Of a stretch of 41,896 bases of DNA, positions 354 through 17,242 are shown in pieces. The DNA is from an uncultured Acidobacteriia bacterium (GTDB taxonomy: Bacteria; Acidobacteriota; Terriglobia; Bryobacterales; Bryobacteraceae): assembly GCA_903875575.1 (NCBI GenBank), contig CAIQWJ010000068.1:1-41896 (forward strand). The letters are read 5' to 3'. The notes below the pieces were generated by a model that worked only from the letters and a program-made list of their open reading frames with translations, searched no databases and was not told where the DNA came from. How positions within the stretch are numbered: position 1 is the stretch's first letter; every line of letters starts with the position of its first letter. A program made the translations under genes and the position numbers.

Positions 354-1679
354 TCAAACCCAGCCGGATTGCGAAAATGCCGTGCGCAGCACCAGCAGAT
401 CCCGCTTCATCGCGCCGAGGACCTGAGCCCTTGGCAGCGTGATCGTGTCGGCGGCATTGTTCGCCCCGCCGTTGGGATACTCTGCCTGAATCTCAATCGG
501 ACCATTGAAGCCGATATCCATGAGGATCGATCCCAACAACGGCAGATTGTCGAGGCCTTCGCCAAGCGGAACCTGTCGAATTCTCCAGGGATTCGCCGCA
601 CCGCCGCCTCCGCGACCACCGCCGGCAGCACCACCGCCGCCCGGTCCACCGCCGCGACCGCCACCGCCACTTCCACCGCGACCGCCACTACCGCCTCGGC
701 CTCCACCACCCGGTCCACCCGGCCCACCGGGACCTCCCGGTCCGGCAGCAACAGGTCCACCCGCGCCGGGAGCGCCGCCCGGACCGCCTGGACCACCCGG
801 TCCACCAGGACCTCCAGGTCCGCCAAAGCCGCCACCACCGCCGCTCGCTCCCCGGCCACCGCCGCCTCTGCCACCCGCAGCCAGCGAAGCCGGCGTACCC
901 GTGAACGGACCGCCGCCACTCACCGGCAAATTCAACTCAATGACCGAATCCTTCACCGATACTCCGGCGATATACTGCGCTGCCGCCCGCAGATTCAGAT
1001 CCCAGCTGGCATAACCCGCGTCCATCATGTGGCCCACGTCGTAGTGAAAGCCCACCCGCTTCGGATCGAAGTTATTAAACACGGAAAGCAGATCCCAGAT
1101 GGCCGATCCCACCGAACCACTTCCCGAATACGTGTGGTACATGGCGGTCATCTTATACTTCTCCAGCAGCGTGACCAGCTTCGCCAGGCGCGGCTTGAGG
1201 GCCTCCAGTTGATCCGCAATCGGCTTGTTCAGATCGTACCGGAAGGTTCCACCCCAGTAATGGGTCATCCCCAAAGACGACGCCGTCTGCAGCATCTTCT
1301 CCGCGTTCGGCGTGTCCGCATCGGTAATCGTGCAGCGCATCGTCGTCACGCGCAGGCCCTGCTTCCGCGCCGCGTTCACATAAAGTGGCAGATCCGTCGC
1401 GACTTTTTCGGGGTCCACGTGACCGGGATACGGCACCACGGTAATATCCAGACCCTCGTATCCCATCTCAGCCGCGGCAGCCGCGACTTCCTCGGGCTTT
1501 CTCAGCCACTGGAGGTGGCGCGAATACGCATCCACAATCAGTCTTCGGCTCGCTCCCGACGCTGGGGCAGCGGGTGCCGGAGCCTGTGCCGCCCCGGGGG
1601 GCTGCGCCACGGCCTGCGCCAGAAACTCCGCGGTCACGGCCGCGCCAAGGCTGGATTGAAAAAAGTCGCGTCTATTCAT
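354..1679 (-). CDS. Tat-exported sugar phosphate isomerase/epimerase-like TIM barrel with Gly-rich insert
   Basis: A 441-residue protein. MNRRDFFQSSLGAAV is a Tat signal (RRDFF), followed by an Ala/Pro linker to about residue 42. The core matches the xylose-isomerase-like TIM barrel family (AP endonuclease 2 fold): GYEGLDI near the start, GFHYDVGHM with metal-binding His/Asp, VSVKDS, then VPLGEGLDNLPLL and IEIQAEYP. Roughly residues 263-363 are an almost pure Gly/Pro/Arg/Ala segment with runs of GGPGGPGG and GRGGGGRGG. It sits in the loop between the VKDS strand and VPLGEG, where ordinary homologues have only a short loop. I chose ATG 1679 because it starts the Tat signal; the longer open frame upstream to 1847 is not protein-like. 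Substrate unknown; such exported isomerase-like proteins are common in Acidobacteria and Planctomycetes. Confidence 0.8.
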   Translation of the reverse strand: MNRRDFFQSSLGAAVTAEFLAQAVAQPPGAAQAPAPAAPASGASRRLIVDAYSRHLQWLRKPEEVAAAAAEMGYEGLDITVVPYPGHVDPEKVATDLPLYVNAARKQGLRVTTMRCTITDADTPNAEKMLQTASSLGMTHYWGGTFRYDLNKPIADQLEALKPRLAKLVTLLEKYKMTAMYHTYSGSGSVGSAIWDLLSVFNNFDPKRVGFHYDVGHMMDAGYASWDLNLRAAAQYIAGVSVKDSVIELNLPVSGGGPFTGTPASLAAGGRGGGGRGASGGGGGFGGPGGPGGPGGPGGPGGAPGAGGPVAAGPGGPGGPGGPGGGGRGGSGGRGGSGGGGRGGGPGGGGAAGGGRGGGGAANPWRIRQVPLGEGLDNLPLLGSILMDIGFNGPIEIQAEYPNGGANNAADTITLPRAQVLGAMKRDLLVLRTAFSQSGWV

Positions 1680-1908: not shown

Positions 1909-3315
1909 TCAGAACGTTTCGCTGTTGAAGAACTCCCCGAAAATCTCCTGCTCCGAGGGTTGATCAGCCGGAATCGGCACACTCACCCACGTCACGTTCA
2001 TAAAGTGCTTCACCCCGATGTTTTCGCTCGTAATATTGCCGCCCCACGTCCCGCACCCCAGACTGGCCGTCATCGGCATGCCGTTCGTAAAAGCCCCGGC
2101 GTTGCCCCTGACCTGCGGCTGCCGGACCATGATCCGGCTCACCGGAGCCATCAGCGCCAGTTGATGAGTGTGTTCCGGATTAAACGTATAGATTCCGCAC
2201 GAGTGCCCTTTCCCGCCCACTTCAAAAATCTGCGAAATCATGTTCAGTGCAGTCTCAAACCCCTTGTAACGGAAGATCGCCAGCACCGGCGATAGTTTTT
2301 CGCCGGAAAACACGTGTTCCTTACCGATCTTGTCTTCCTTCACAATGATGAACGTCTTGCCCGCCGGCAGAGCGAAGCCTGCCACTTCCGCGATCGTCGC
2401 CGCCGAGCGCGCCACTGTCTCCAGCGTCCGGTGATTCTCCGCGTCCCACATCACGGCCTTCAGCCGCGCTTTGTCGTCATCCGACGCGAGGTAGCCGCCT
2501 TCTTTCTGCAACTGCTCCAGGAAACGGTCGTAAATGGAATCCTCCACCACCAGATTGCCGTCGCACGAGCAGCCCGACCCGTTGTTGTGAGTCTTGCTGA
2601 TCCTGGTATTCGCAGCGGCCTCCGCGATGTCGGCGGTTTCGTCGATGATCATCGTGGCATTGCCCGCCCCCACACCATACGCAGGTTTCCCCGAACTATA
2701 CGCCGCGCGCACCATGGCCGACCCGCCGGTGGCCACCGTCAGATCGCAGATCGACATCAGTTCCTGCGCCAACGGAATGCTGGGCTTTTCGATGCACTGG
2801 ATCGCGTCTTCCGGCGCGCCCTGTTTCTTCAAGGCGGCTCGCAAGATGCGCGTGGCTTCGAGCGCCGTCTTCTTACTCGCCGGATGCGGCGAGAAGACAA
2901 TGGCATCCCGGCACTTGAGGCCGTTGATGGCCATCGCGACCATGGTGACCACAGGATTCGTCACCGGCAGCAGGCCAGCGATCACACCCGCCGGCTTCGC
3001 GTACTTGACGATGCCCTTCTCCGGAATCTCTTCAATGACACCAATACTCTTCTGCCGCAAAGCGTCGCGCAGAATGCCGACAATCTTGAAGCGCCGTGCC
3101 GGACCGCCGTCCGCGCTCCCCATCTTGCTCTCGTCCACGCTCATCTGCGTCAATGCGACAAACGTCTTCTCATTTGCCGTCGCCCATGCCACCGCGCGGC
3201 ACAGATTGTCCACTCTGGCCTGATCGTAACCATCAATCTCGCGCATCGCGGCACGGGCCTTGTCGAGTAGTCCGTGAGCTATCGCCTTTTCTTCTTCAGT
3301 AACTGCTCTCGCCAT
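1909..3315 (-). CDS. CoA-acylating aldehyde dehydrogenase, SauS-like
   Basis: A 468-residue aldehyde dehydrogenase of the CoA-acylating class, which interconverts an aldehyde + CoA + NAD(P)+ with an acyl-CoA. It resembles the N-terminal half of AdhE and especially sulfoacetaldehyde dehydrogenase SauS: VTNPVVTMV, FSPHPASKKT, AYSSGKPAYGVGAGNA, then the catalytic segment KTHNNGSGCS with Cys249, and LGCGTWGGN near the end. The start at 3315 is set by a strong ribosome site (GGGAGG, 3326-3321); the open frame runs further upstream. It is the last gene of a minus-strand operon, 34 bp after the CoA-transferase. The substrate is not evident: SauS-like proteins are often annotated as sulfoacetaldehyde-specific, but no canonical xsc or sulfoacetate importer is present here. 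Confidence 0.85.
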   Translation of the reverse strand: MARAVTEEEKAIAHGLLDKARAAMREIDGYDQARVDNLCRAVAWATANEKTFVALTQMSVDESKMGSADGGPARRFKIVGILRDALRQKSIGVIEEIPEKGIVKYAKPAGVIAGLLPVTNPVVTMVAMAINGLKCRDAIVFSPHPASKKTALEATRILRAALKKQGAPEDAIQCIEKPSIPLAQELMSICDLTVATGGSAMVRAAYSSGKPAYGVGAGNATMIIDETADIAEAAANTRISKTHNNGSGCSCDGNLVVEDSIYDRFLEQLQKEGGYLASDDDKARLKAVMWDAENHRTLETVARSAATIAEVAGFALPAGKTFIIVKEDKIGKEHVFSGEKLSPVLAIFRYKGFETALNMISQIFEVGGKGHSCGIYTFNPEHTHQLALMAPVSRIMVRQPQVRGNAGAFTNGMPMTASLGCGTWGGNITSENIGVKHFMNVTWVSVPIPADQPSEQEIFGEFFNSETF

Positions 3316-3349
3316 ATTTGCCTCCCAAAAGGAATTTCGATAATCTTTG

Positions 3350-4552
3350 TCAAGAGATCGCGCCGGAACGGCGCAGCGTCTCAATCTCTTCCGCGCTGTA
3401 GCCCGCGTCCGCCAGAATCTCCGCGGTATGTTGACCCAGCGCCGGTGCTTCGAACGGCTCCGCGCCAGACGCCCCGCTGAATTTCAATGGCTGCCTCAAG
3501 CCGCTGTAGCGGCCTACCGTGGAGTGTCCCATCTCGGCCACCAACCCCTGCTCCACCACCTGCGGATGACTGAACATTTCTTCAATGGATCGAACCGCGC
3601 AGCAGGGAACCTGTTCTCCGAAAATCGCTTCCCATTCGAGCGCCGTATGCGCATTCAGCGCCTTCCGGATCACAGGCACAATCTCATCTGCAGCCTTCGC
3701 GCGCTTCCGGACACTGTCGTATCTCGTGTCTATCGCCAAATCCGGCAAGCCGATCAGCGTACACAGCGCCCGCCAGAAATGCGGCGTGTTCGCAGAAAGG
3801 TAAATCTCGCCCGCGCTCGTTGGATGAATACCGGTAATGCCACCCGAACGGAGATCCCGATCCACCCCGTCTGGCTCGCCTTCCGCCTGCACAAAACGGC
3901 CGGATTGCATAGCCAGTGCTGCGCCCAGCAACGACAGGCCAACATACTGTCCCTCGCCCGTTCGCTCCCGCTGGAACAATGCGGCGGAAACTCCGTAGGC
4001 GAGCAGCGATGCCGCGTAAAAATCCACCACGGAACCCAGCACAATCTCCGGCCTTCCACCAGCCGCGCCCTGGAACGTAGCGATACCGGTGAAACACTGG
4101 AGCACCTGATCGTAACCGGCCTTGTCCTTCATCGGCCCGGTTTCGCCATAGCCGGTCAGTGCGCAGTAAATCAATCGTGGATTCGCTTCCCGGAGCCGGT
4201 CGTAGTCAATTCCCAGACGCACCGGCACCGATGGACGAAAGTTATGCACCATTACATCCGCCGACTGCGCCAGCCGCAGAAAGACCGCCAAACCCTCCGC
4301 CTGCTTCAGATCCAGGGCCAGCCCGCGTTTGCTGCGGTTCGTACCCACGAAAGCGCGCGACTCGGCGTCCAACGTCGAAGGATACTGGCGCAGTGCATCT
4401 CCACCGGGCGGCTCGATCTTGATAACCTCGGCACCCAAATCCGCCAGCAAAGAACACGCATACGGCCCCGCAACATAGGAGCTCAAATCCAACACCCGTA
4501 TCCCGGCCAAAGGACCCGCCTGGTTACGCAGCGTATCCGAATCAGCGGACAT
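3350..4552 (-). CDS. Family III CoA-transferase (CaiB/BaiF/Frc type)
   Basis: A 400-residue class III CoA-transferase, which moves CoA between carboxylic acids through an aspartyl-CoA intermediate. Landmarks: GIRVLDLSSYVAGPYACSLL at the N-terminus, LGAEVIKIEPP, TNRSKRGLALDL, VMVHNFRP, GYGETGP, and GSVVDFYAASL, whose Asp177 is at the expected catalytic position. Length is normal for the family. Its start overlaps the stop of the CitE-like gene by 11 bp, so translation is probably coupled. In context it would activate the acid substrate, or recycle CoA, for the CitE-like lyase and the acylating dehydrogenase. Formyl-CoA:oxalate transferase is one family member, but nothing here fixes oxalate as substrate. 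Confidence 0.88.
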   Translation of the reverse strand: MSADSDTLRNQAGPLAGIRVLDLSSYVAGPYACSLLADLGAEVIKIEPPGGDALRQYPSTLDAESRAFVGTNRSKRGLALDLKQAEGLAVFLRLAQSADVMVHNFRPSVPVRLGIDYDRLREANPRLIYCALTGYGETGPMKDKAGYDQVLQCFTGIATFQGAAGGRPEIVLGSVVDFYAASLLAYGVSAALFQRERTGEGQYVGLSLLGAALAMQSGRFVQAEGEPDGVDRDLRSGGITGIHPTSAGEIYLSANTPHFWRALCTLIGLPDLAIDTRYDSVRKRAKAADEIVPVIRKALNAHTALEWEAIFGEQVPCCAVRSIEEMFSHPQVVEQGLVAEMGHSTVGRYSGLRQPLKFSGASGAEPFEAPALGQHTAEILADAGYSAEEIETLRRSGAIS

Positions 4553-5417
4553 TCATCTCCCGAACGCGACCCGCCGCCGCGGCAATCGCGTGGGCGTGAT
4601 CGATCATCGGCGCGTCAATCAGTTGTCCATCCACCACGAAAGCCTGCACTCCCCGTTGAGCAGCCTCACTCGCGGCCGCCAGTACCTTTTCGGCATGCGC
4701 CACTTCGGCGGCCCCGGGCGCGAACACTTCGTTGGCGATCGCGATCTGACTCGGATGAATACAGCTCTTCCCTGCGTAGCCTAACCGCCTCGCGGCCTCG
4801 GCCTCCGCACGGCAGAATTCCACATTCTTAATATCGGGGAATGCCGCGTCGTATGCCGCGATTCCCGCCTCGCCAGCCGCCAGTCGAACTGCGACCCGCA
4901 CAAACTGAAGGGCACTCATCTCCTGCCGGTTAATATTCAAAGGCAGGAACAAATCCGCAAATCCAATCTGAAGTCCGGCAACCCGCAGATCCGCCGTGGC
5001 AATCTCCGCCGCCCTGCGCAGCCCCTTCGGCGTCTCGATGTTCGCCAGGATCGGCGTCTTTCGCCCGGAGCCGCACGCCTCTTCTGCCCGCGCAATCACC
5101 GCAACTGCCGCGTGCACATCGTCGGCGGACTCCACTTTCGGAAGATTGATCATGTCCAGACCGGCACCAATCACCGCCTCCACATCGCGCTCGAACCACG
5201 GCGAGGAGAGCGAGTTCACACGTACAATCACGATCTTGCGGAAACCACCCGATCTCCCGCACAGGAATTCCGCGACAGCCGCCCTCGCCGCATCCTTGCG
5301 TTCCGGCGCTACCGCATCTTCCAGATCGAACGAAACGGCATCGGCCGCGGACGCCGCAGCCTTTTCGAATAACTCAGGGCGCGATCCGGGAACGAAGAGC
5401 TTGCTGCGAATGTACAT
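4542..5417 (-). CDS. HpcH/HpaI aldolase / citrate lyase beta-subunit (CitE)-like lyase
   Basis: A 291-residue TIM-barrel lyase of the CitE-like family, which includes malyl-CoA, citramalyl-CoA and beta-methylmalyl-CoA lyases. Motifs in order: RSKLFVPGSRPELFEKA, VSFDLEDAVAPERK, IVRVNSL, INLPKVES, ANIETPKGL (Mg-site Glu), GFADLFL (Asp), and GYAGKSCIHPSQIAIANEVF. It would cleave or form a beta-hydroxyacyl-CoA, giving a short oxo-acid such as glyoxylate or pyruvate plus an acyl-CoA. I placed the start at ATG 5417, where homology begins; upstream in-frame codons are not convincing. It is the first gene of the operon and divergent from the ThDP enzyme gene. No citrate lyase alpha or gamma subunit is near, so it is not classical citrate lyase. 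Confidence 0.87.
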   Translation of the reverse strand: MYIRSKLFVPGSRPELFEKAAASAADAVSFDLEDAVAPERKDAARAAVAEFLCGRSGGFRKIVIVRVNSLSSPWFERDVEAVIGAGLDMINLPKVESADDVHAAVAVIARAEEACGSGRKTPILANIETPKGLRRAAEIATADLRVAGLQIGFADLFLPLNINRQEMSALQFVRVAVRLAAGEAGIAAYDAAFPDIKNVEFCRAEAEAARRLGYAGKSCIHPSQIAIANEVFAPGAAEVAHAEKVLAAASEAAQRGVQAFVVDGQLIDAPMIDHAHAIAAAAGRVREMNVR

Positions 5418-5825
5418 GAAAATCGACGCCGGAACAGACAAACTTACCTTACCCAACCGCTGTTCTGCTGTCTGGCTGGAGCGATCATAGCACCCGTTTT
5501 CAATTCCCGGCAAGCGTGTAACGGTCCACCTTCCCCCGCTTGCCACACGTTACCTGCACTCGTCGCAGCCCGATGAATCAACCGAAAACAGTCTTGCGCA
5601 AACACGCGGCTGCCCTGCCAATCCGGCGCGTCAAGCGTTTTCTTTACCTGAACTTACACCAGCCGCACCGCCGTCAAACTTTCCGGGAAAGGCAGTCGGC
5701 CCCCAGCCAATCGATACCGTTACGCAATTGCCCAGCCTCAATCAAGCTGTTAGAATCGCCTACGTTAGTATCAGATCATCAGGCTCCATCAGAGTCCGGA
5801 TTCAGTCGGGAGAAAGTACATAACA
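5418..5825. promoter_or_regulatory. Divergent promoter region of the CoA/ThDP gene cluster
   Basis: A 408-bp intergenic region between the divergent CitE-like and ThDP genes, with no convincing coding content. It contains an 8-bp inverted repeat (GGCAAGCG 5509-5516 / CGCTTGCC 5537-5544) nearer the CitE side. Nearer the ThDP gene it contains the 16-bp CAATCGATACCGTTAC at 5708-5723 (repeated before the PQQ dehydrogenase gene), and a sigma70-like promoter at 5728-5756. A shared regulator for both transcripts is plausible but inferred. Confidence 0.55.
5728..5756 (+). promoter_or_regulatory. Predicted sigma70 promoter of the ThDP enzyme gene
   Basis: TTGCCC at 5728-5733 and TAGAAT at 5751-5756 with the ideal 17-bp spacer, about 70 bp before the start codon. 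The 16-bp repeat at 5708-5723 lies just upstream of the -35 box. Prediction from consensus only. Confidence 0.4.
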
Positions 5826-7619
5826 ATGACCGGAGCAATGTTCATCGCAGCGTGCCTCAAACAGGAAGGCGTAACGAAGGTCTTCGGTCAATGCGGACAT
5901 ACGAACTACGCCCTCATCGACGCCTGCCAGCAGCACGGCATTGAGTACATCTCTTTCCGCCACGAACAGCAGGCCGCCCACGCAGCCGACGCTTACTTCA
6001 GAGTGACCCATAAGCTGGCGGTCCTCAATGTCCACCTCTCGCCCGGCATGACCAACGCCATCACCGGAGTCATTTCCGCCGCGGCGGACTGCACGCCCAT
6101 GCTGGTCATTTGCGGCAACACCCCGGCCTATAACCACGCTCGCGAACCCCATCAGGGCATCCGCTTTCATGCCGATGCTTCGCAGGGCGACATCTATCGC
6201 CCCTTCTGCAAACGCGTCTGGCGCGTAGACGACGTCAAACTGCTGGCCGATGTGATGCCCCGCGCCCTCAACGTTGCTCAAACCGGACGCCCCGGTGCCG
6301 TCCTGATCGATGTCCCCATGGACGTCTTCTCTGCGCAAATCAATGCTGAGGCCGTAACCGTGGCCCGCCGCCCCACTCACGCCCGCGCCGCTGGCTCCAG
6401 CGCCGGCATCGCGGAAGCTGCCTGCCTGTTACTGGCCGCCGCAAGACCGGTCATCTTCGCTGGCAACGGCGTGTTGCTTTCTGAAGCGAGCGAGGAATTG
6501 AAAACCCTCGCGGAACTCATGGAAATTCCCGTCGCCACCACCCTCATGGGCAAAGGCGCATTTCCTGAACACCATCCCCTGGCTCTGGGCACCGCCGGCA
6601 TTTGGGGCACCCGGGCGGCCAACCAGACCACGCACGAGGCCGATGTCATCCTTGCCGTCGGCACCGGCTTCGCCGAAGCCGATTGCAGCTCCTGGAATCC
6701 CGACTACACGTTCTCCATCCCGTCGTCCCGCCTGATTCAGATTGATACCGATCCTCAGGAGATCGGCAAAATCTATCCTGCGGAAGTCGGCATTGTTGGC
6801 GACGCCCGCGAGACTCTTCGCGAGTTGATTACTCACCTGCGCGGCGAAAAACGTATGACTTCAGACACCAGCGCCAGGCTTCGCGAAATCGCTCTCAGGA
6901 AACAAGCCTGGAATGCAGAGCTCGTTGCCACGCAGACCAACGCAGACAAGCCAATTCACCCGGCCCGCCTCCTGTTTGAAGTCTCAAAAGCAGCGCCCGC
7001 GGACGCCATCTTCGTTACGGATGTCGGCTGGAACAAGAACGGTGCCGGTCAACAACTGAAGTGCTCGCTCCCCGGTACTTTCATCACATCAGGCGGCATG
7101 GCCACCATGGGCTTCGCGCCCGCCGCCGCCATCGGAGCCAAACTCGGCGCGCCAGATCGCAAAGTGATCTGCCTCGTGGGCGATGGCGGCTTCCTCTCCG
7201 TGATCGGCGCTCTCACGACTGCGGTTGAACTCAACGTGCCCGTGCTCTGGGTGCTGTTCAATAACTTCTGTTTCTCCACCATTCGTTCAGTCGGCGCCAA
7301 TTACTTCAAGAACACTTACGGTACCGAATTCACCACGCCCGATGGCGCGCCTTATAACCCGGATTTCATGCTGCTCGCGAAATCCTTCGGAGTGGAATCG
7401 GCGCTGGTCGTGGAACCGTCCGACCTGGGCCCCGCCCTCGAAAAGGCCATAAAGTCCAACGTTCCCTACCTGCTGGAAGTCCGCACCCGGGCTGACGTCC
7501 CCATGCCGCGCACTGGTTATTGGGATATCGCTGATTTTCTGGTTGGCGGCAATGGCCCGGCCGACGACGCCATCGCCACCTCTCAGACCCCGCGCGAAGT
7601 CGAAACCACCGTCGCATAA
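5826..7619 (+). CDS. Thiamine diphosphate-dependent decarboxylase/carboligase-like enzyme
   Basis: A 597-residue full-length ThDP enzyme of the acetolactate synthase/benzoylformate decarboxylase superfamily. The N-terminal Pyr domain carries the cofactor-activating Glu47 in SFRHEQQAAHAADAY. The middle domain (around residues 195-330) has PVIFAGNGVLLSEASEEL. The C-terminal PP domain holds the Mg/diphosphate motif from GDGG (452) to NN (479-480). The retained Glu argues against glyoxylate carboligase, which has Val there; the C-terminal motif lacks the signature of sulfoacetaldehyde acetyltransferase Xsc. Being divergent from CitE-like, CoA-transferase and acylating dehydrogenase genes, it most likely decarboxylates a 2-oxo-acid or cleaves a 2-hydroxyacyl-CoA, giving an aldehyde for the dehydrogenase. 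A ribosome site GGGAGAAAG (5808-5816) supports the start. Confidence 0.8.
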   Translation: MTGAMFIAACLKQEGVTKVFGQCGHTNYALIDACQQHGIEYISFRHEQQAAHAADAYFRVTHKLAVLNVHLSPGMTNAITGVISAAADCTPMLVICGNTPAYNHAREPHQGIRFHADASQGDIYRPFCKRVWRVDDVKLLADVMPRALNVAQTGRPGAVLIDVPMDVFSAQINAEAVTVARRPTHARAAGSSAGIAEAACLLLAAARPVIFAGNGVLLSEASEELKTLAELMEIPVATTLMGKGAFPEHHPLALGTAGIWGTRAANQTTHEADVILAVGTGFAEADCSSWNPDYTFSIPSSRLIQIDTDPQEIGKIYPAEVGIVGDARETLRELITHLRGEKRMTSDTSARLREIALRKQAWNAELVATQTNADKPIHPARLLFEVSKAAPADAIFVTDVGWNKNGAGQQLKCSLPGTFITSGGMATMGFAPAAAIGAKLGAPDRKVICLVGDGGFLSVIGALTTAVELNVPVLWVLFNNFCFSTIRSVGANYFKNTYGTEFTTPDGAPYNPDFMLLAKSFGVESALVVEPSDLGPALEKAIKSNVPYLLEVRTRADVPMPRTGYWDIADFLVGGNGPADDAIATSQTPREVETTVA

Positions 7620-7694: not shown

Positions 7695-7918
7695 TCCGCC
7701 AGCACCGCGTCTGCGCGTCCCGTAATCTTCCCGTGTAACGCCGCGCAAACTCAGTATCGGACCTGTAAGCAATTGGCTTATTAACCAGTTAGCGGATAAG
7801 TCGGCCTGCAATACACACCTTCTGATCGCCTTCGGAACGAAGGTAAATGATACGGTTACTCGCACCTGAATGTCATCAAATTTATGATACGCTCAACCCG
7901 GTGGAAGAGGTCTCAAAC

Positions 7919-10900
7919 ATGAAACGATTTACACTTGCTCTGCTATTTACCTGCCTGATTGCTCTGAATGCGTTCTCTCAGACGACGTCCGCAATCTCCG
8001 GACGCGTCGCGGATCCCGGCGGCGGTGCCATTCCCGGAGCCCAGGTCCAGGTGACCAACACCGATACCAATGCCGTGCGCACCCTCCAGACCGGTCCGGA
8101 CGGCGCTTACAACTTTCCGTCCCTCGTCATCGGACCCTACAAGCTCGAAGTCAAGAAAGACGGCTTTCAAACCTACGTCCAGTCCGGCATCGTTCTCCAG
8201 TTGAACGTGAACCCTTCCGTCAACGTGGAAATGAAGCTCGGCAACGTCACGCAATCCGTCGAAGTCCAGGCCGATGCCGCCATGGTCGAGACCCAGAGCA
8301 CCGGTGTCGGCCAGGTGATTCAGCCCGAACAGGTGGTTGACCTCCCCCTCAATGGGCGCCAGGCGACGCAGCTGATCGCCCTCTCCGGCGCAGCAGTCGT
8401 CAGCGGTGCAGGTGGCACCGTGAATACCCTTGACTACCCCAGCGCCGTCTCATTCTCCGTCGCCGGCAGTCAGGGCAATGAGACCAACTACCAGCTGGAT
8501 GGCTCCCCCAACATGGATTACCGCACCAACGTCGGCGCGCCCATGCCCTTCCCCGACGCACTTCAGGAGTTTCGCGTCGAATCCAACTCGCTTCCAGCCA
8601 ATTCCGGCAGCCGCCCCGGCGGCACCGTCGGCGGTGTCACCAAAGGCGGCACCAATAACATCCATGGCGATCTCTTCGAGTTCATGCGCAATGGCATCAT
8701 GAATGCCGATTCCTTCCAGTTCGGCAATTCCTCCGGCGTCGTCAGCCCCGGCATTCAGGACAACCTCAAGCGCAATCAGTTCGGCGGCGTCATTGGCGGG
8801 CCCATCAAGAAGAACAAATTGTTCTTCTTCTACGGCCTTCAGGGAACGCAGGAACGTTCCCAGACCAACGGAACCAGAGGCGGCGTCCCCACGGCCGCTA
8901 CGCTGTCCGGCGACTTCCGCGCGTGGCTGGCCCCGCCCTGCCAGGCCAATCAGGTATATCTGAATGACACGATCGCGTCGCCCATTTCCGGCAATCCGGC
9001 GCAGCAACTCACCACCGGCACCAAAAGCAACATCATCCTGCCACAGTGGCTCAACACTCCCTCGGCGAAAATCTCGGCGAAAATCGCAGCGATGCTGCCC
9101 ACCCCTGTGGACGCCTGCGGTAACGTCTTCACGGTCAGCCACAACATTAACCGCGAATACCAGAACGTCGCCAAGGTCGATTGGCAGCGCTCCGCCAGCG
9201 AGTCGCTGTTCATCCGTTACTTCGTCGCCGACTATTCGCAGACCAACTATTTCGTGCCCGGCAATCTGCTCAGCAACACCGGCCCTGGCCTGGCCGACCG
9301 CGTCCAGAACGTCGTCATCGGAGATTCCCGAACCCTGAAGTCCAGTATGGTGAATTCGCTCACCATCAACTTTGGCCGCACCGCCACCGTGCGCACCGCC
9401 AATCCAGCCATTCCGAATCTTTGTTCGCTCGGCACTCTGGCCACCTGTCCCTTGCCCAACTACCTCTCATACTCCTTCTCAGCCCCTGGCTTCCTCGGTT
9501 ATGACTACGAAAACGTTCATGGCATCGCGGAAAATCTCGGCTGGCAAATTCGGTCGCATCACCTCGAACTGGGTGCCGTCTTCCAGCACGTGCAGATGAA
9601 CAACAACGGTCTCTTCCAGGTCAATCCCGGCCCCACCGTTTCCACCGGCAGCAGTTCCTACACTGGCCAAAGCGTTGCCGACTTCGTCACCGGCAATGTG
9701 GATGGCTACAGTCAGGGCAACGGCCAGATTGGCCGCGAAGGCCAGAACTACCCTGCGCTGTTTGTTCAGGACAACTGGAAAGTCGCACGTCGCTTCCAGC
9801 TCAATCTCGGCCTTCGCTGGGATCCCTACCTGCCGCAGCACACCAAATACGGCTACGCTTCCGATTTCAACATCACCGATTTTCTCGCCAACAAGAAAGG
9901 CACCGTCTATCCCAACGCACCCGCCGGCACCACTTTCCCGGGTGACCCGGGTTTCAACGGCACCTCAGACACCCGGAATCATCCGTGGCAATTCGCCCCC
10001 CGTATCGGTGTGGTTTGGGATCCGACCGGCTCCGGCAAAATGTCTGTACGCGCCGGCTACGGTTTGTCGTACAACACCGCGGTCCTCTGGAACGCCATGC
10101 ATATCGTGCTGAATCCACCATGGGGCGGCACGCTCAGCTTCACACCTTCTCCCGTCAACGTGTCGTCTTCCGACCCGCTCGCGGGCGGCGGCATCGCAAA
10201 CCCCTTCTACGGCTACCCGGGAGGCAATCCCTTCCCCACGCCGGGAAATCCGCCCTCGTCGTTTGCGTTCCCCGTCAACGGAACCTACGTTTTTGAAGAC
10301 CGAAACATCGTGCCTTCGCACACGCAGTCCTGGAACGTTTCCATCCAGCGGCAGATCACCCGCAACTGGCTGGCCTCTGCCACATATATCGGCAATAAAT
10401 CGAACAATATGTGGCTGGGCGTCAGCCAGAACCCCGCCACTGTCATCACCGCCGGCATGACCGCTCCGGGCATTGTGAGCACTGCGGCCATGACCGGAAT
10501 CACCGGTGCCTGCACCCTGCTCTACGGCACGCAGACCGTCACGTTCCCCACCTGCAACGCCTCCTCTACCGTAACCGTCAGTGGCGTATCAAACCAAAAG
10601 GCACGCGGCGCTCTCAATCTTGCCAACCCGACCTCCGGTCCCTTATTCGCCGGCGGCAACGTCTTTGAAAGCGCCATGGGTTATGCCAATTACAACGGCC
10701 TCCTGCTCTCCCTCCAGCATCGCCTCAGCCACGGCTTCTCCGTACTCTCCAACTACACCTGGTCGCATTGCACTGACCTTGGCGAAGGCGGTCAGGACAT
10801 TGGCAACAACTTCTCCAACCCCAACAATCCCCGGATGGACTTCGGCAACTGCGGTCAGGATCGCCGCCAGCTCCTCAACATCTCGGTGGTTGCGCAAACG

Positions 10901-11416
10901 CCCAAACTCAGCAATCCGTGGATGGAACGCCTCCTCGGCGGCTGGAGCGCCTCCACCATTTACACCGCTGCCACCGGCTCTCCCTTCAATGTCGCCGATG
11001 GTTCCGATATCTCCCTCACCGGCGTGAACAGTGACCGTCCCAATATCGTGGGAGACCCCTGGACCGCCGGCACCGTCTCCGCGAATTCCGCCTGCGTGGC
11101 ACCTGCCGAACTCCGCACGCTCGGCCACTGGTACAACAACTGCGCCTTCGTCAAACAGGCCTCCGGCACCTACGGCAATGGCGGTCGTAACAATATGACC
11201 GGCCCCGGCCGCTGGAACGTGGATGCCGCCATCTGGCGAACCTTCCGTATCGCGGAAAAGTATAAGTTCGACTTCCGCGGCGAAGGCTTCAACGTCCTGA
11301 ACCACGCCAACTGGGGTAACCCGTCAGCCAGCCTCAATACCGGCGTTCCCGGCCAGATCACCACGGCTTCGAACACCGCCCGTATACTTCAGGTCGCCCT
11401 GAAACTCACGTTCTGA
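7919..11416 (+). CDS. Oar-like TonB-dependent outer-membrane protein with carboxypeptidase-regulatory domain
   Basis: An 1165-residue outer-membrane protein of the type expanded in Acidobacteria. A Sec signal peptide (MKRFTLALLF...NAFSQ, about 21 residues) is followed by a carboxypeptidase regulatory-like Ig fold (SAISGRVADPGGGAIPGAQV to KKDGFQTYV, about 24-110). Then come a plug-like region (VVDLPLNGRQATQL, about 140-250) and a long C-terminal beta-barrel with many aromatic strands ending in LQVALKLTF, a typical C-terminal Phe. It probably imports or binds oligosaccharides or other large ligands with TonB energy; the ligand is unknown. Start 7919 was chosen because GGAAGAGG lies 8 nt upstream and the signal peptide begins there; the frame extends to 7847. 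It stands alone, bounded by hairpins on both sides. Confidence 0.9.
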   Translation: MKRFTLALLFTCLIALNAFSQTTSAISGRVADPGGGAIPGAQVQVTNTDTNAVRTLQTGPDGAYNFPSLVIGPYKLEVKKDGFQTYVQSGIVLQLNVNPSVNVEMKLGNVTQSVEVQADAAMVETQSTGVGQVIQPEQVVDLPLNGRQATQLIALSGAAVVSGAGGTVNTLDYPSAVSFSVAGSQGNETNYQLDGSPNMDYRTNVGAPMPFPDALQEFRVESNSLPANSGSRPGGTVGGVTKGGTNNIHGDLFEFMRNGIMNADSFQFGNSSGVVSPGIQDNLKRNQFGGVIGGPIKKNKLFFFYGLQGTQERSQTNGTRGGVPTAATLSGDFRAWLAPPCQANQVYLNDTIASPISGNPAQQLTTGTKSNIILPQWLNTPSAKISAKIAAMLPTPVDACGNVFTVSHNINREYQNVAKVDWQRSASESLFIRYFVADYSQTNYFVPGNLLSNTGPGLADRVQNVVIGDSRTLKSSMVNSLTINFGRTATVRTANPAIPNLCSLGTLATCPLPNYLSYSFSAPGFLGYDYENVHGIAENLGWQIRSHHLELGAVFQHVQMNNNGLFQVNPGPTVSTGSSSYTGQSVADFVTGNVDGYSQGNGQIGREGQNYPALFVQDNWKVARRFQLNLGLRWDPYLPQHTKYGYASDFNITDFLANKKGTVYPNAPAGTTFPGDPGFNGTSDTRNHPWQFAPRIGVVWDPTGSGKMSVRAGYGLSYNTAVLWNAMHIVLNPPWGGTLSFTPSPVNVSSSDPLAGGGIANPFYGYPGGNPFPTPGNPPSSFAFPVNGTYVFEDRNIVPSHTQSWNVSIQRQITRNWLASATYIGNKSNNMWLGVSQNPATVITAGMTAPGIVSTAAMTGITGACTLLYGTQTVTFPTCNASSTVTVSGVSNQKARGALNLANPTSGPLFAGGNVFESAMGYANYNGLLLSLQHRLSHGFSVLSNYTWSHCTDLGEGGQDIGNNFSNPNNPRMDFGNCGQDRRQLLNISVVAQTPKLSNPWMERLLGGWSASTIYTAATGSPFNVADGSDISLTGVNSDRPNIVGDPWTAGTVSANSACVAPAELRTLGHWYNNCAFVKQASGTYGNGGRNNMTGPGRWNVDAAIWRTFRIAEKYKFDFRGEGFNVLNHANWGNPSASLNTGVPGQITTASNTARILQVALKLTF

Positions 11417-11596: not shown

Positions 11597-13450
11597 ATGA
11601 AAATCCTTCGTGTACCAGTTCTGATCGCTTCCGCCTTGCCGCTCCTGTTTGCGCAGTCCGGCGATTGGCCCAATATCGGCAATGATCCGGGCGGCATGCG
11701 CTACTCCACGCTGAAACAGATCACCCCCGCCAACGTCAGCAAACTCGTTCGCGCCTGGACGTATGACATGGGTGAACCCGGCGGCGGCTTTCGCGGCACC
11801 GAAGCCACCCCGATCGTCGTCGGCGGCATCATGTACTTCTCCACCCCCGGCGGTAAAGAAGTCGCACTCGACGCCGCCACCGGCAAAGAAGTCTGGAAGT
11901 ATGACCTCAAGGAAGTCACTGCCACCGGCCGTGGTGCCAAGTACGGCGTCTCTTACTGGCCCGGCGACGGCAAAATGGCGCCCCGCGTGGTCGTCGCCAC
12001 CACCGACGGCCTCCTGATTCAACTCGATGCCAAAACCGGCAAACTCTACAAAGAAGTCGGCGATAACGGCATTGTCGATCTCAAAGTCGGCATGGTGGAA
12101 AAATACGGCGGCGGCTACACCCCGGGTTCCACCCCCGCCATCTACAAAAATTTGGCCATCATTTCCCCCACTACCGGCGAACAGGGCCGCTACGGCATCG
12201 CCGGCGACCCCCGAGCCTTTGACCTCCAGACCGGCAAGGAAGTCTGGCGCTTCCACACCGTCCCGCAGCCCGGCGAACCAGGCTTTCCCTCCTGGGGAGT
12301 TGACGGCTGGCAGGACCGCCGCGGTCCCGGTGCCTGGGTTCCCATGACCGTCGATACCGCCAACGGCCTCATCTTCGTTCCGCTCGGTAATGCCACCGAC
12401 CAGAACTACGGCGGCAGCCGCCCCGGTCCAAATCTCTACGCCACCAGCCTGGTCGCGCTCGACGCCAATACCGGCAAGATGAAATGGTATTACCAGACCA
12501 CCCACCACGACATCTACGACTGGGACGTGAACGCACCACCCACTCTGATTGAAGTCACGAAAGACGGCAAAAAGATTCCCGCCGTCGCGCAGTCCACCAA
12601 ACTGGGTTTCCTGTTCATCCTGGACCTCCTGACAGGCAAAGCCGTTTGGGGCGACGAAGAGCGCCCCGTACCCGATACCGACGCCCCGGGCGACCACGCC
12701 TCTCCCACCCAGCCCTTCCCCCTCAAGCCCGAGCCCATTTCGCGCATCAGCATGACCCGCGAAGAAGTCAGCAAGATCTCGCCCGAGACGGAAAAGACCT
12801 GCAAAGCCCAGTACGATAAGGCTGTCCAGATGGGTCCCTACACCCCGTATGGCATGATGCCGAGCCTGGTATTCCCCAGTTCGGAAGGCGGCGGCAGTTG
12901 GTCGGGCGCGTCCTTCGATCCCGGCCTCGGCTACGTCTTTGTAAACACCCGCAGTCTGGGCACCATGGCCAAACTGAATCCCACCACTTCCTCCGGACTT
13001 CTGCCGTCCTACGCGAAACAGAAGATTCCGTTTGAAGACGCGGCCGGCTATCCGTGCAGCGCTCCGCCATGGGGCGAACTGATGGCGGTCAGCGCGACAA
13101 CAGGCGATATCGTCTGGCGCGTCCCGCTCGGCGAATACAAAGAACTGACGGCGAAAGGTGTGCCGAAGACCGGTACACCGAACGCGGGCGGCCCCATTAT
13201 CACCGCCGGCGGTGTGCTCTTCATCGGTGCCACAGCCGACCTCATGTTCCGCGCCTTCGACCCAAAAACCGGCAAAGAACTCTGGTCGACGCAACTCGAA
13301 AACAGCGCCGTCAACACGCCGATCACTTATTCCGCCGGCACCGCTTCGAAGCAGTACGTCGCGGTCTGGGCAGGTGGTGGCCTGGGCGATTTCAAGACCT
13401 CAGCCCCCGGCCAGAAGACGAATCTGATCGTGGCCTACTCGCTGCCGTAA
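11597..13450 (+). CDS. Periplasmic PQQ-dependent dehydrogenase (quinoprotein)
   Basis: A 617-residue quinoprotein. The signal peptide MKILRVPVLIASALPLLFAQ is followed at once by an eight-bladed propeller of the glucose/alcohol quinoprotein dehydrogenase type. The opening DWPNIGNDPGGMRYSTLKQI and VRAWTYDMGEP are typical of the family. Repeated blade motifs include LDAATGKEVWKYD, FDLQTGKEVWRF, LDANTGKMKWYY and FDPKTGKELWST; HHDIYDWD at about 303-310 is the active-site region. It would oxidise sugars or alcohols in the periplasm and pass electrons to quinone or a cytochrome. No membrane anchor or cytochrome c domain is present. Glucose specificity is not established and no PQQ synthesis genes are in the window. 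GAGG 10 nt upstream supports the start. Confidence 0.88.
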   Translation: MKILRVPVLIASALPLLFAQSGDWPNIGNDPGGMRYSTLKQITPANVSKLVRAWTYDMGEPGGGFRGTEATPIVVGGIMYFSTPGGKEVALDAATGKEVWKYDLKEVTATGRGAKYGVSYWPGDGKMAPRVVVATTDGLLIQLDAKTGKLYKEVGDNGIVDLKVGMVEKYGGGYTPGSTPAIYKNLAIISPTTGEQGRYGIAGDPRAFDLQTGKEVWRFHTVPQPGEPGFPSWGVDGWQDRRGPGAWVPMTVDTANGLIFVPLGNATDQNYGGSRPGPNLYATSLVALDANTGKMKWYYQTTHHDIYDWDVNAPPTLIEVTKDGKKIPAVAQSTKLGFLFILDLLTGKAVWGDEERPVPDTDAPGDHASPTQPFPLKPEPISRISMTREEVSKISPETEKTCKAQYDKAVQMGPYTPYGMMPSLVFPSSEGGGSWSGASFDPGLGYVFVNTRSLGTMAKLNPTTSSGLLPSYAKQKIPFEDAAGYPCSAPPWGELMAVSATTGDIVWRVPLGEYKELTAKGVPKTGTPNAGGPIITAGGVLFIGATADLMFRAFDPKTGKELWSTQLENSAVNTPITYSAGTASKQYVAVWAGGGLGDFKTSAPGQKTNLIVAYSLP

Positions 13451-13536: not shown

Positions 13537-14514
13537 TCAGCTTGCGAACACTTTCATGTGTCGCGGTACGATGCTGACGAAATCGCCCACCTGCAGGTGC
13601 AGTTCCCGGTAGTGTTCCCGCGTAATCTCCGCTTCAATCACCACGCCAGAGTCTTCCCGGCGCAGTTCCACTCGCACCACTCCCCCTGCGGCTCCAACGT
13701 ACAGCACCTTAGAGAGGACTGCCGCCGGATTCAGGTTGGTGTCGCGCGAGATCTCAATATCGTGCGGACGTACATAGCTGCCATTGAACAACGTCACATC
13801 CCCCAGAAATTCGTAGACAAACGAATTCGCCGGGTTATCGTAGACATCCGCCGGTGCCCCGGTCTGCTCAATCCGGCCGTGGTTCATGATCGCCACCCGG
13901 TCCGCCACCTCAAGCGCTTCTTCCTGATCGTGCGTCACAAAAACGCTGGCGACGTGCAGCGTGTCGTGCAGATGCCGCAGCCAGCGCCGAAGCTCCTTCC
14001 TCACTCGCGCGTCCAGTGCGCCGAAAGGCTCATCCAGCAGCAGCACCTTTGGCTCCACCGCCAGTGCCCGCGCCAACGCCACCCGTTGCCGCTGGCCGCC
14101 GGAGAGTTGGCTCGGAAACCGATCGCCCAGCGGTGTGAGCTGAATCAACTCCAGCAGCTTGCCTACCTTTTCGCGAATCGCGTGTTCGTTCGGTCGCGTT
14201 TCCCTTGGCCGCACACGCAACCCAAATGCGATGTTTTCGAAGACAGTCATATGCCGGAAAAGCGCATAATGCTGGAACACGAACCCTACCTGACGGTCGC
14301 GCGCGGCGGACTTTGTCGCGTCCTCATCGTTCAGCCGGATCGTCCCGCTGTCCGGCAGTTCCAGTCCGGCGATAATTCGCAGCAACGAAGTCTTGCCGGA
14401 GCCCGAAGGTCCCAGCAGAGCGAACAGTTCACCGTCCTCCACGCGAAGATTCACGTCCTTCAGCACCTCAAAAGATCCGAAAGATTTGTGAATATTGTTG
14501 ACTTCGATACTCAT
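13537..14514 (-). CDS. cysA: Sulfate ABC transporter ATP-binding protein CysA
   Basis: A 325-residue ATPase energising sulfate/thiosulfate import from the cytoplasmic face. Walker A GPSGSGKT at 35-42, signature LSGGQ at 137-141, Walker B VLLLDEP at 157-163 and switch His195 (VTHDQEEAL) are all present. A C-terminal accessory domain (from about 235, [11 protein letters not shown]) is of the TOBE-like type usual in CysA. The start at 14514 overlaps the cysW stop in an ATGA arrangement; the extra 8 residues upstream lie within cysW. It is the last gene of the porin-sbp-cysT-cysW-cysA operon and ends at a strong bidirectional terminator. Confidence 0.95.
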
Positions 14515-15353
14515 CCGTTGTCCTCCCGCGTCTTCCACTCCAGGAACTTCTTCAAAGCCAGTGTCACCACCGCCACCACACTGAGCAGCGAGGCCACCGC
14601 AAACGCGGCCGTGTAATTGTATTCGTTATAGAGAATTTCCACGTGCAGTGGAATCGTATTGGTCGCCCCGCGAATGTGGCCGGACACCACCGACACAGCC
14701 CCGAACTCGCCCAACGCGCGGGCCGTGCAGAGCACCACACCATACAGCAGGCCCCACTTGATGTTCGGCAGCGTCACCCGGCGAAACATCTGCCACGCGG
14801 TCGCACCAAGCACGATTGCCGCTTCTTCTTCATCCGAGCCCTGCGACTGCATCAGCGGAATCAGTTCACGCGCCACAAAAGGAAACGTGACAAACACAGT
14901 CGCAAGCACGATGCCCGGCACCGCGAAAATGATCTGCACGTCGCGATCCGCCAGCCAGGCTCCGAACCAACCCTGCGCCCCAAAGACCAGCACGAAAATC
15001 AGGCCCGAAACCACGGGTGAGACGCCAAATGGAATATCGATCAGGGTAAGCAGCAGGTTCCGCCCTTTAAATTGAAACCGCGCAATGGTCCACGCCGCGG
15101 TAAGCCCGAAAAACAGGTTCAGCGGCACGGAAATGCCCGTGACCATCAGCGACAGCATGATAGCGGAACGCGCGTTTTCTTCGGTCACCGCAGCCTGCCA
15201 TACCTGCCAACCCTTATCGAAAGCCTGGATGAAGACGGCGGCCAGCGGCAGAACAATAAACAGCAGAGTCAACCCGAGCGCCAGCCCGATCAGGCTCCTC
15301 CGCAGCCACGTCGGCTCCGCGCGCAGTACGCGTGTGCGACTGGTCGTGATCAT
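14511..15353 (-). CDS. cysW: Sulfate ABC transporter permease CysW
   Basis: A 280-residue inner-membrane permease with about six hydrophobic segments, beginning with [20 protein letters not shown]. The ABC ATPase-binding EAA loop reads [22 protein letters not shown] (part of residues 175-200), and the CysW-type segment [19 protein letters not shown] follows. It forms a heterodimer with CysT for sulfate translocation. The gene overlaps both cysT and cysA by 4 bp (ATGA), so translation of the three is coupled. Confidence 0.95.
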
Positions 15354-16207
15354 GACAGTTTCGTTTCCATGAAACGGCGCGACCTTCCCTGGATTGCGTT
15401 AATCCCAAAGAGCATCAGGAAAGAAGCAAGCAGCATCGCCACCGCAATGGCTGCGGCTCCCGCATAGTCGTATTGCTCCAGCTTCGCGATGATCAGCAGT
15501 GGTGCGATCTCAGTCTTCATCGGAAGATTTCCGGAGATGAAGACCACTGACCCGTATTCACCCAGCCCCCGTGCAAAAGCCAGCGCAAAGCCAGTCAGCA
15601 GCGCCGGACGAAAAGCTGGCAGCAGCACCAGCCGGAAGACCTGCCAACGGCTGGCCCCCAGACTGGACGCAGCTTCCTCGATTTCATGATCGGCGTCTTC
15701 AAGGACCGGCTGCACGCTGCGGACCACGAACGGCAGCCCAATGAAGATCAGTGCAATGGTGATCCCCAGCGGCGTGAATGCCACTTTGATGCCAAGCGGC
15801 TCAAGATATCGCCCCAGCCACCCGTTTGGCGCGTAGATGCTCGTGAGAGAAATGCCGGCCACCGCGGTGGGCAGCGCGAAGGGAATATCCACCAGAGCGT
15901 CCATCGCAGCTCGCCCCGGAAATTTGTAACGCGTCAGCGCCCACGCGATCAGGAAGCCGATCACGACACTGGCCACTGCCGCCGCGAAGGAAGCCCCGAA
16001 GGTCACCTTATAAGCGGCAACCACCCGGGGCGACGAAATGGTGTCCCAGATCTTCGACCATCCCGCCGTCGCCGCCTTCAGAAAGACCGCGCTCAGCGGA
16101 ATGAGAACGATCAGCGTCAGATAGAGCACACTGTAACTGAAGGCAGGCCAGAACCCCGGCAGAATGCCGGGGCGTTTGAACCAGGTACTCTTGGATGATC
16201 CTGCCAC
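15350..16207 (-). CDS. cysT: Sulfate ABC transporter permease CysT (CysU)
   Basis: About 285 residues. Motifs: GFWPAFSYSVLYLTLIVLIPL as first membrane segment, DALVDIPFALPTAVAGISL, the EAA loop EEAASSLGASRWQVFRLVLLP, and FARGLGEYGSVVFISGNLP, all characteristic of CysT. The start is uncertain. GTG at 16207 lies one base beyond the sbp stop (TAG 16211-16209) and gives the usual family N-terminus; in-frame ATGs at 16249 and 16282 lie inside sbp and would add an Arg-rich, unlikely leader. I prefer the GTG. Partner of CysW in the sulfate channel. Confidence 0.92.
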   Translation of the reverse strand: MAGSSKSTWFKRPGILPGFWPAFSYSVLYLTLIVLIPLSAVFLKAATAGWSKIWDTISSPRVVAAYKVTFGASFAAAVASVVIGFLIAWALTRYKFPGRAAMDALVDIPFALPTAVAGISLTSIYAPNGWLGRYLEPLGIKVAFTPLGITIALIFIGLPFVVRSVQPVLEDADHEIEEAASSLGASRWQVFRLVLLPAFRPALLTGFALAFARGLGEYGSVVFISGNLPMKTEIAPLLIIAKLEQYDYAGAAAIAVAMLLASFLMLFGINAIQGRSRRFMETKLS

Positions 16208-16208
16208 G

Positions 16209-17207: not shown

Positions 17208-17242
17208 TTGTGGTCTCCTCAATGTGGGTTACGGGTTGGTCT

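Follow-up and report, generated by a model that had tools for sequence, protein, structure and literature searches.

What does a gene cluster do that joins a thiamine diphosphate (ThDP) enzyme to a coenzyme A (CoA)-ester lyase, a CoA-transferase, and an acylating aldehyde dehydrogenase? The question is raised by contig CAIQWJ010000068.1 (C68) of an uncultured Acidobacteriia bacterium (Bryobacteraceae; assembly GCA_903875575.1); the window analyzed here is this entire contig, 41,896 bases in a genome of 5.98 Mb. A preliminary description of the four genes knew of no standard pathway with this set. Indeed, no match to a described pathway was found, nor any describing paper in a literature search covering few subscription journals. 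The genes belong to a well-supported module, conserved far more widely than the window. The chances are about even that this module serves the catabolism of a hydroaromatic acid of the quinate/shikimate type, whose ring would be opened without being aromatized. The four core genes are as follows.

1909..3315, minus strand: CoA-acylating aldehyde dehydrogenase, nearest to SauS yet outside it; start corrected to ATG 3315.
3350..4552, minus strand: family III (CaiB/FRC) CoA-transferase; PF02515 at 386.9 bits, Asp177 conserved.
4542..5417, minus strand: CitE-like CoA-ester lyase of the HpcH/HpaI fold; PF03328 at 170.3 bits, start corrected to ATG 5417.
5826..7619, plus strand: ThDP enzyme of branch A, a proposed ring-opening diketone hydrolase.

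All four reading frames score above the Pfam gathering threshold (Aldedh, CoA_transf_3, HpcH_HpaI, and three TPP domains). Alignment with relatives places the start of the dehydrogenase at ATG 3315 instead of TTG 3384, and that of CitE at ATG 5417 instead of GTG 5546. There is an 11-base overlap between CitE and CaiB and a 34-base gap between CaiB and the dehydrogenase; the ThDP gene diverges from the three at a distance of about 400 bases. The coupled operon with a divergent ThDP gene is present as first described. Among 61 related genomes, the ThDP family (at least 44% identity) and the dehydrogenase (at least 67%) occur in the same 12 and neither occurs in the other 49. The four-gene arrangement is kept in all four genomes of the genus with a close ThDP gene (that of the window, G006, G008, and G012). 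The ThDP proteins of the latter three are 85–89% identical to that of the window, with CitE, CaiB, and the dehydrogenase divergent in each. The CaiB gene of G008 (L039 11877–13045) is split over two frames, residues 1–121 and 110–394, by a frameshift or an assembly error. The nearest named ThDP relatives come from two bins, one of Bryobacteraceae (85%) and one of Acidobacteriia (89%, over an incomplete copy). A second ThDP subfamily, 44–49% identical, is found on contig C33 of the window genome and in other relatives, with a dehydrogenase 67–72% identical to that of the window. In several relatives its neighbors are a citrate-synthase-fold citryl-CoA-lyase-like protein, a major facilitator superfamily transporter, a receptor, ThuA-family proteins, and a pyrroloquinoline quinone (PQQ) dehydrogenase.

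The ThDP alignment was then scanned against one genome per species in 84,980 species, giving at least 574 stretches that encode a relative, of which the best 80 were kept. These 80 loci span many phyla, and the usual partners of the ThDP gene are an acylating or an ordinary aldehyde dehydrogenase and one of three lyase families, resembling citryl-CoA lyase, CitE, or HMG-CoA lyase (HMGL). With assignment by identity, 14 loci are of type A (window-like, at least 69% ThDP identity; Acidobacteriota, Brevundimonas, and one gammaproteobacterium) and 66 of type B (the sister branch, 43–51%; Proteobacteria, Bacillota, Actinomycetota, and others). One locus at 51% (L076) is counted as type B and stands next to A in the tree; none of the sought neighbor genes was found there. 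Two of the loci, L063 and L099, are from the genomes G006 and G012. Of the 14 genomes with type A, eight have type B in addition and six do not; hence, type A is more than an adjunct to type B. At E ≤ 1e-125, with up to three candidates per genome scored, 5 of 396 Acidobacteriota genomes hold the family, that of the window included. Streptomyces and Nonomuraea records (L144; NZ_LT559118.1) contain a 44% ThDP relative, and actinomycetes therefore carry the family too; no gene is listed under the region. Neighbors were identified by tblastn with queries taken from the loci themselves, main representatives being named by Pfam and NCBIfam, and co-occurrence counts are limited to 9.5 kb from the ThDP midpoint. 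Neighbors clustered before naming include TIM/QuiC-like barrels and acylating dehydrogenases (44 loci each), citryl-CoA-lyase-like proteins (37), the TRAP transporter DctM (31), CaiB (24), ordinary dehydrogenases (21), AroE (20), zinc dehydrogenases (16), HMGL-like lyases and AroD (15 each), and shikimate kinase (14). The view that the four genes form a set not assembled by chance is thus confirmed, both by the related genomes (12 of 12 versus 0 of 49) and by the 80 loci.

The surroundings of the ThDP gene associate the sister branch with quinate and shikimate. The comparison uses regions of at least 18 kb: 53 of the 80 ThDP loci (44 type B and 9 type A) and 36 of 40 control regions, the latter centered on ordinary aldehyde dehydrogenases in 16 carrier genomes. 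AroD, AroQ, AroE, or shikimate kinase is present at 35 ThDP loci (34 of type B and one of type A) and in none of the controls, and a TIM or QuiC-like barrel at 39, again versus none. Some lyase is found at 44 loci versus two controls, an acylating dehydrogenase at 36 versus one, and CaiB at 19 versus one. Compared with the zone at 5–10 kb, the first 5 kb around the ThDP gene is much richer in genes for the acylating dehydrogenase, TIM barrel, CaiB, HMGL, and AroD, and about twofold richer in the citryl-CoA-lyase-like gene. A plasmid of Azoarcus sp. KH32C, annotated by others, carries in order a 4-hydroxyphenylpyruvate dioxygenase-like gene, a sugar-phosphate isomerase-like barrel, a CoA-transferase, a citryl-CoA lyase, the ThDP protein, shikimate dehydrogenase, aroD, and a TauE/SafE-family gene.

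Some other neighbors recur in particular groups of loci. Shikimate kinase is found mostly in bacilli (L077, L078, L079, L084, L086, L088, L091, L095, L103, L104, L113, L129, L140, and L141). A conserved 448-residue protein of bacilli (L095 5893–7239), whose cluster occurs in eight loci, matches nothing in Pfam at E 0.001 and may be the transporter. Two clusters of Gfo/Idh/MocA dehydrogenases, weakly similar to inositol dehydrogenase, occur mostly in Rhodobacteraceae (L081, L098, L101, L110, L111, L114, L119, L122, L124, L127, L131, L136, and L137).

The ThDP enzyme is not Xsc (297.5 bits on TIGR03457, cut-off 676.4), as had been stated at the outset, and it scores under the cut-off of each of the 25 NCBIfam models listed. 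Its best profile is that of acetolactate synthase (TIGR00118), at 405.5 bits with a cut-off of 538.35; true acetolactate synthases of the window and related genomes reach 720–776 bits. This score, together with His25 and His70, rules out a plain acetolactate synthase, the identity that the preliminary description regarded as fatal to a new pathway. His25 is present in all 81 ThDP family rows, in seven of eight IolD rows (the eighth has Thr), and in none of nine acetohydroxyacid synthase (AHAS) rows; of the IolD rows, L148 is misread with 13 stops and L145 is short, and the AHAS rows were profile-checked. Asn27, which lies with His25 in a G-H-x-N stretch, is found in 75 of the 81 family rows, in seven of eight IolD rows, and in no acetolactate synthase. 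His70 is present in all 81 family rows and absent from the IolD and acetolactate synthase rows. The N-terminal His, as in IolD, suggests that the enzyme may work like a ring-opening ThDP diketone hydrolase. On the IolD profile (TIGR04377), the window genome has its two family members at 268 and 258 bits, above its acetolactate synthase at 193; the window protein, at 258, is far below the cut-off of 715. In its predicted structure (pLDDT 82) the enzyme most resembles the ThDP-dependent synthase BbmA; acetohydroxyacid synthase, glyoxylate carboligase, and cyclohexane-1,2-dione hydrolase (CDH) match it at similar TM-scores, and therefore the fold does not decide the function. Oxalyl-CoA decarboxylase and HACL were rejected, their structures scoring lower and the alignments of HACL1, acetolactate synthase, and oxalyl-CoA decarboxylase having no His at either position. 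We propose that the enzyme opens a cyclic diketone by hydrolysis. Three points weigh against this: the best profile is that of acetolactate synthase, plain identity is about 32% to AHAS and about 25% to IolD, and His70 is not common to IolD.

In the window the cluster extends both ways, with a TIM barrel on the strand of CitE, CaiB, and the dehydrogenase, and with a receptor and a PQQ dehydrogenase beyond the ThDP gene.

357..1679, minus strand: xylose-isomerase-like TIM barrel; PF01261 at 68.3 bits, predicted to be exported by a twin-arginine-type leader.
7847..11416, plus strand: TonB-dependent/Oar-like outer-membrane receptor; PF25183 at 576.3 bits, PF13620 at 71.1 bits.
11597..13450, plus strand: PQQ-type dehydrogenase with a leader-like start; TIGR03074 at 445 bits, cut-off 832.65.

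The receptor, whose cluster is also found beside sister modules, likely serves uptake. The PQQ-type enzyme has its best NCBIfam match in the glucose/quinate/shikimate dehydrogenase family (TIGR03074) and is a candidate for the first oxidation. The TIM barrel, which adjoins the dehydrogenase in all four loci of the genus, is a candidate keto-acid dehydratase or isomerase; we take its leader motif to be of the twin-arginine type. In the TIM proteins of type B, E135, D165, D194, and E239 are invariant in 23 rows and three arginines are kept; in the wider TIM set D194 and E239 occur in 34 of 35 rows. We assume that these four residues are the usual metal ligands. For the Anaerospora protein, the modeled structure (pLDDT 94) has IolI and a TIM/HPPD fusion as its nearest folds. 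Bacterial QuiC/QsuB is such a fusion, with the dehydratase activity in its N-terminal domain (PMC7442255). By analogy, elimination by the barrel on 3-dehydroquinate would leave a ring diketone. The exported barrel of the window belongs to the superfamily at a greater distance, and by a further step might perform the same dehydration; exported TIM barrels are found near six of the 14 type A loci.

These elements can be arranged in a route of five steps. We infer all its substrates and products, and set them on the observed gene identities, linkage, replacement pattern (see following), and quinate/shikimate context of the sister branch. First, quinate would be oxidized to 3-dehydroquinate by an exported PQQ dehydrogenase, or elsewhere by zinc dehydrogenases or those of the AroE type; shikimate would enter through 3-dehydroshikimate and 3-dehydroquinase acting in reverse. 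The xylose-isomerase-like TIM barrel, a relative of QuiC and IolI, would then remove the hydroxyl beta to the ketone on the hydrated ring, the same elimination that QuiC performs, giving 1-hydroxy-3,4-dioxocyclohexane-1-carboxylate. The ThDP enzyme would hydrolyze the bond between the two carbonyls, as IolD and CDH do; the product would be an aldehyde acid whose carbon skeleton is that of homocitrate. The acylating dehydrogenase would convert this aldehyde into a CoA thioester, or else an ordinary dehydrogenase would produce homocitrate to which CaiB adds CoA. Finally, CitE, or stand-ins from other families, would cleave homocitryl-CoA into acetyl-CoA and 2-oxoglutarate. C1 of quinate bears a hydroxyl and a carboxyl like the central carbon of citrate and the opened diketone has the homocitrate skeleton, which is why a citryl-CoA-type lyase would give these two products. 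Citryl-CoA and HMG-CoA, known substrates of these lyase families, are tertiary alcohols like C1 of quinate. The scheme would explain why the lyases are interchangeable, why CaiB is dispensable beside the acylating enzyme, and why some carriers are anaerobic: among the 80 loci are those of Alkaliphilus, Anaerospora, Anoxynatronum, Tissierellia, and Desulfofustis, which we take to be anaerobic lineages. The wider claim, of a widespread oxygen-independent quinate/shikimate route through a non-aromatic diketone, ThDP ring opening, and homocitryl-CoA, with three exchangeable lyase families and two ways to the CoA ester, is made tentatively and is somewhat more likely to be wrong than right.

The clearest trace of the order of reactions is a complementary distribution of CaiB and the two kinds of dehydrogenase. 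CaiB, a family III CoA-transferase by PF02515 and by Asp177 (likely catalytic; no other residue in 30 rows; presumably the equivalent of FRC Asp169), mostly accompanies an ordinary dehydrogenase in the 80 loci. In type B, it is found in none of the 40 loci with only an acylating dehydrogenase and in 14 of the 16 with only an ordinary one (Fisher test 2e-11, not corrected for relatedness). The two of these 16 that lack CaiB are L077 and L091, the latter having an acylating gene just beyond the 9.5-kb radius. Among the remaining type B loci, both kinds of dehydrogenase occur at three, of which one has CaiB, and neither kind at seven, of which two have it. Alignment A3 leaves out L072, which has a stop in its row, and L138. 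On the ThDP tree (FastTree, 81 rows), the kind of dehydrogenase changes at least five times in type B and CaiB six times; the counts ignore the ordinary dehydrogenases of L085, L101, and L111, which are far away on the other strand. Four independent pairs bear on the rule with supported branches and five with all; on average 3.7 agree and none is opposite. Shared descent weakens the statistics (sign test, p = 0.125), and the rule is suggestive, not proven. On a plain reading of these genes, the aldehyde would become a CoA thioester in one step with the acylating enzyme and in two with an ordinary dehydrogenase and CaiB. The pattern fits an oxidation, then a CoA ester, then the lyase.

The preliminary description had suggested another order, starting with the activation of a hydroxy or dicarboxylic acid by CaiB. 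Cleavage by CitE would then give acetyl-CoA and a 2-oxo acid, decarboxylation of the oxo acid by the ThDP enzyme would give an aldehyde, and the acyl-CoA made by the dehydrogenase would feed CaiB. Many ThDP enzymes of the superfamily are decarboxylases, and in the window and in six of the eight type A loci with an acylating enzyme CaiB is also present, which would close the cycle chemically. The order therefore still fits the window branch, but for type B it predicts the opposite of what is found, and it leaves the quinate/shikimate and QuiC-like neighbors unexplained; we regard it as clearly unlikely.

The lyases show a similar replacement. The CitE of the window has Arg109, Glu171, Asp198, and Asp306 (numbered on the reading frame) conserved in seven rows, which we assume to be catalytic, and has the HpcH/HpaI fold; it is not a citrate lyase beta subunit (223.8 bits on TIGR01588, cut-off 443.4). 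Type B loci have a citryl-CoA-lyase-like protein (38) or an HMGL-like one (16), never both, and 12 of the 66 have no visible lyase; therefore, in these the lyase is elsewhere or the step is not universal. The 14 type A loci have CitE (6), a citryl-CoA-lyase-like protein (4), or none seen (4, two of them on loci below 6 kb). Over all tree rows the kind of lyase changes at least nine times. The window CitE is 32–33% identical to that of Brevundimonas, and CaiB proteins fall into five sets, each with at least two members, between which there is no link at >50% identity. Hence, CaiB function seems to have been recruited repeatedly, and both proteins were probably recruited more than once.

Several observations weigh against the quinate/shikimate route. 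For AroE, shikimate kinase, QuiC-like, and PQQ genes, the density in the nearest 5 kb around the ThDP gene does not exceed that at 5–10 kb, and shikimate kinase has no place in the scheme. Eight of the 12 type B loci without a visible lyase are at least 20 kb long. In type A, acylating dehydrogenase and CaiB occur together, at the six loci mentioned, which the replacement rule does not predict. A guess for this branch is that the aldehyde arises on the far arm and that CaiB would move the CoA to the near arm before cleavage; mesaconyl-CoA transfer is a precedent for such a move. Aro genes are rare in type A (one of 14 loci, L065), and the quinate link of this branch comes mainly from PQQ genes, found near eight of the 14 loci (a carboxylesterase is near four); the window genome has 65 PQQ-profile match pieces, nine of them above 270 bits. 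Its single type I 3-dehydroquinase match, a 514-codon frame, lies on a different contig, and none is linked to the window cluster. The quinate evidence for the window branch is thin, much weaker than for the sister branch. Type A may then act on a cyclic acid other than quinate, by the same ring-opening logic, with type B alone being the quinate/shikimate pathway. In favor of this, the genomes with type A divide into eight with and six without type B, and around type A genes one finds PQQ dehydrogenases and exported TIM barrels in place of Aro genes, but at L065 a type A ThDP gene has AroE, TIM, QuiC-like, and AroD genes inside 10 kb. This is a serious if unlikely alternative.

As a further alternative, the module may be a branch of the 4,5-cleavage of protocatechuate or gallate. 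The ThDP enzyme would decarboxylate 4-carboxy-4-hydroxy-2-oxoadipate to citrate semialdehyde, the dehydrogenase would form citryl-CoA from it, and the lyase would split this into acetyl-CoA and oxaloacetate. True citryl-CoA would suit the lyases. The window genome has four LigB matches, one of them on contig C33 some 4 kb past the sister module, where a LigAB-fusion dioxygenase and a protein of the tannase/feruloyl-esterase family are encoded (L160 9622–12766), possibly for the use of gallate or galloyl-quinate. Against such a branch, four LigB queries matched neither the 80 loci nor 16 stretches from the window and related genomes, the C33 stretch ending before the fusion dioxygenase. A dioxygenase is also unusable by the anaerobic carriers, and the variant with an ordinary dehydrogenase would yield citrate, for which CaiB and the lyase are unneeded. 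We consider this branch improbable. Intradiol dioxygenase, searched in the window genome only, gave 30.3 bits (cut-off 27.3) over 73 of 182 positions.

The preliminary description called the dehydrogenase SauS-like and considered sulfoacetate, or another sulfonate, as a substrate, with CoA transfer replacing ligation. SauS is the best NCBIfam profile of the dehydrogenase (NF047625), but the score of 470.5 bits is below the cut-off of 600, and relatives at ThDP loci score 422–480 bits. In 4 of 16 genomes searched a true SauS (670–677 bits) is a separate gene beside this enzyme (422–427 bits); in G474 the two are about 23 kb apart on one contig. The resemblance to SauS thus stands, while the identity with SauS and the sulfoacetate substrate do not. 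Cys249 (numbered from ATG 3315) is invariant in 12 rows and is likely catalytic. The surroundings offer some hints of sulfur chemistry. A sulfate-type ABC importer (CysA, CysW, CysT, and a sulfate-binding protein) follows the cluster at 13537–17222. The TauE/SafE gene after aroD in the Azoarcus record, with such a gene also at two of the 80 loci, counts against the quinate/shikimate route. Two queries found no TauE/SafE in the other 78 loci, and the ThDP enzyme is far under the Xsc cut-off; a sulfonate pathway is hardly credible. Transporter genes of the TauE/SafE family are listed at L143 (15544–16293), L126, and L135. The importer and a phosphate-selective-type porin (13537–18793) lie on the opposite strand beyond the cluster, and nothing matching them is present in the 15 other stretches with which the window was compared.

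Quinate, together with its esters, the chlorogenic acids, ranks among the most common acids of plants, and the textbook bacterial route converts quinate into protocatechuate, whose ring opening needs oxygen. If the proposed route is true, soil, marine, and anaerobic bacteria would have a second one, leading directly to acetyl-CoA and 2-oxoglutarate, and one could explain how anaerobes use hydroaromatic acids. It would also give a function to ThDP proteins whose best match is acetolactate synthase and to unassigned "citryl-CoA lyases," and add a new ring-opening enzyme.

Among known systems, myo-inositol catabolism is built on the same logic: a ring alcohol is oxidized (IolG), a TIM barrel dehydrates (IolE), a ThDP enzyme sharing His25 opens the ring (IolD), and an acylating aldehyde dehydrogenase (IolA) produces an acyl-CoA. 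It differs in that the window ThDP enzyme is not IolD (258 versus 715 bits), that the neighbors in the sister branch are quinate/shikimate genes, and that the inositol pathway ends with a kinase and an aldolase, the present module with a CoA-ester lyase. The Azoarcus CDH matches the window ThDP enzyme in structure, at only 26–27% identity. Its alignment starts at residue 6, versus 3 here, which would put His25 opposite CDH His28 if the offset, the sole basis of this judgment, holds. A CDH variant with a solved structure, H28A/N484A, is known (PMC12247030). The SauS/Xsc pathway of sulfoacetate has in SauS the nearest model of the module dehydrogenase, which is nevertheless below the cut-off and, where both occur, is a gene separate from true SauS. 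The conversion of quinate and shikimate into protocatechuate (QuiA, QuiB, and QuiC) has entry genes like those beside type B modules and shares with them QuiC-like barrels, but scores on the QuiC model are 500 and 156 bits (cut-off 1200), and no LigB-type ring dioxygenase was found in the 80 module loci. Anaerobic fermentation of quinate without aromatic intermediates exists, by enzymes that to our knowledge have not been described; it would need a route like the one proposed here.

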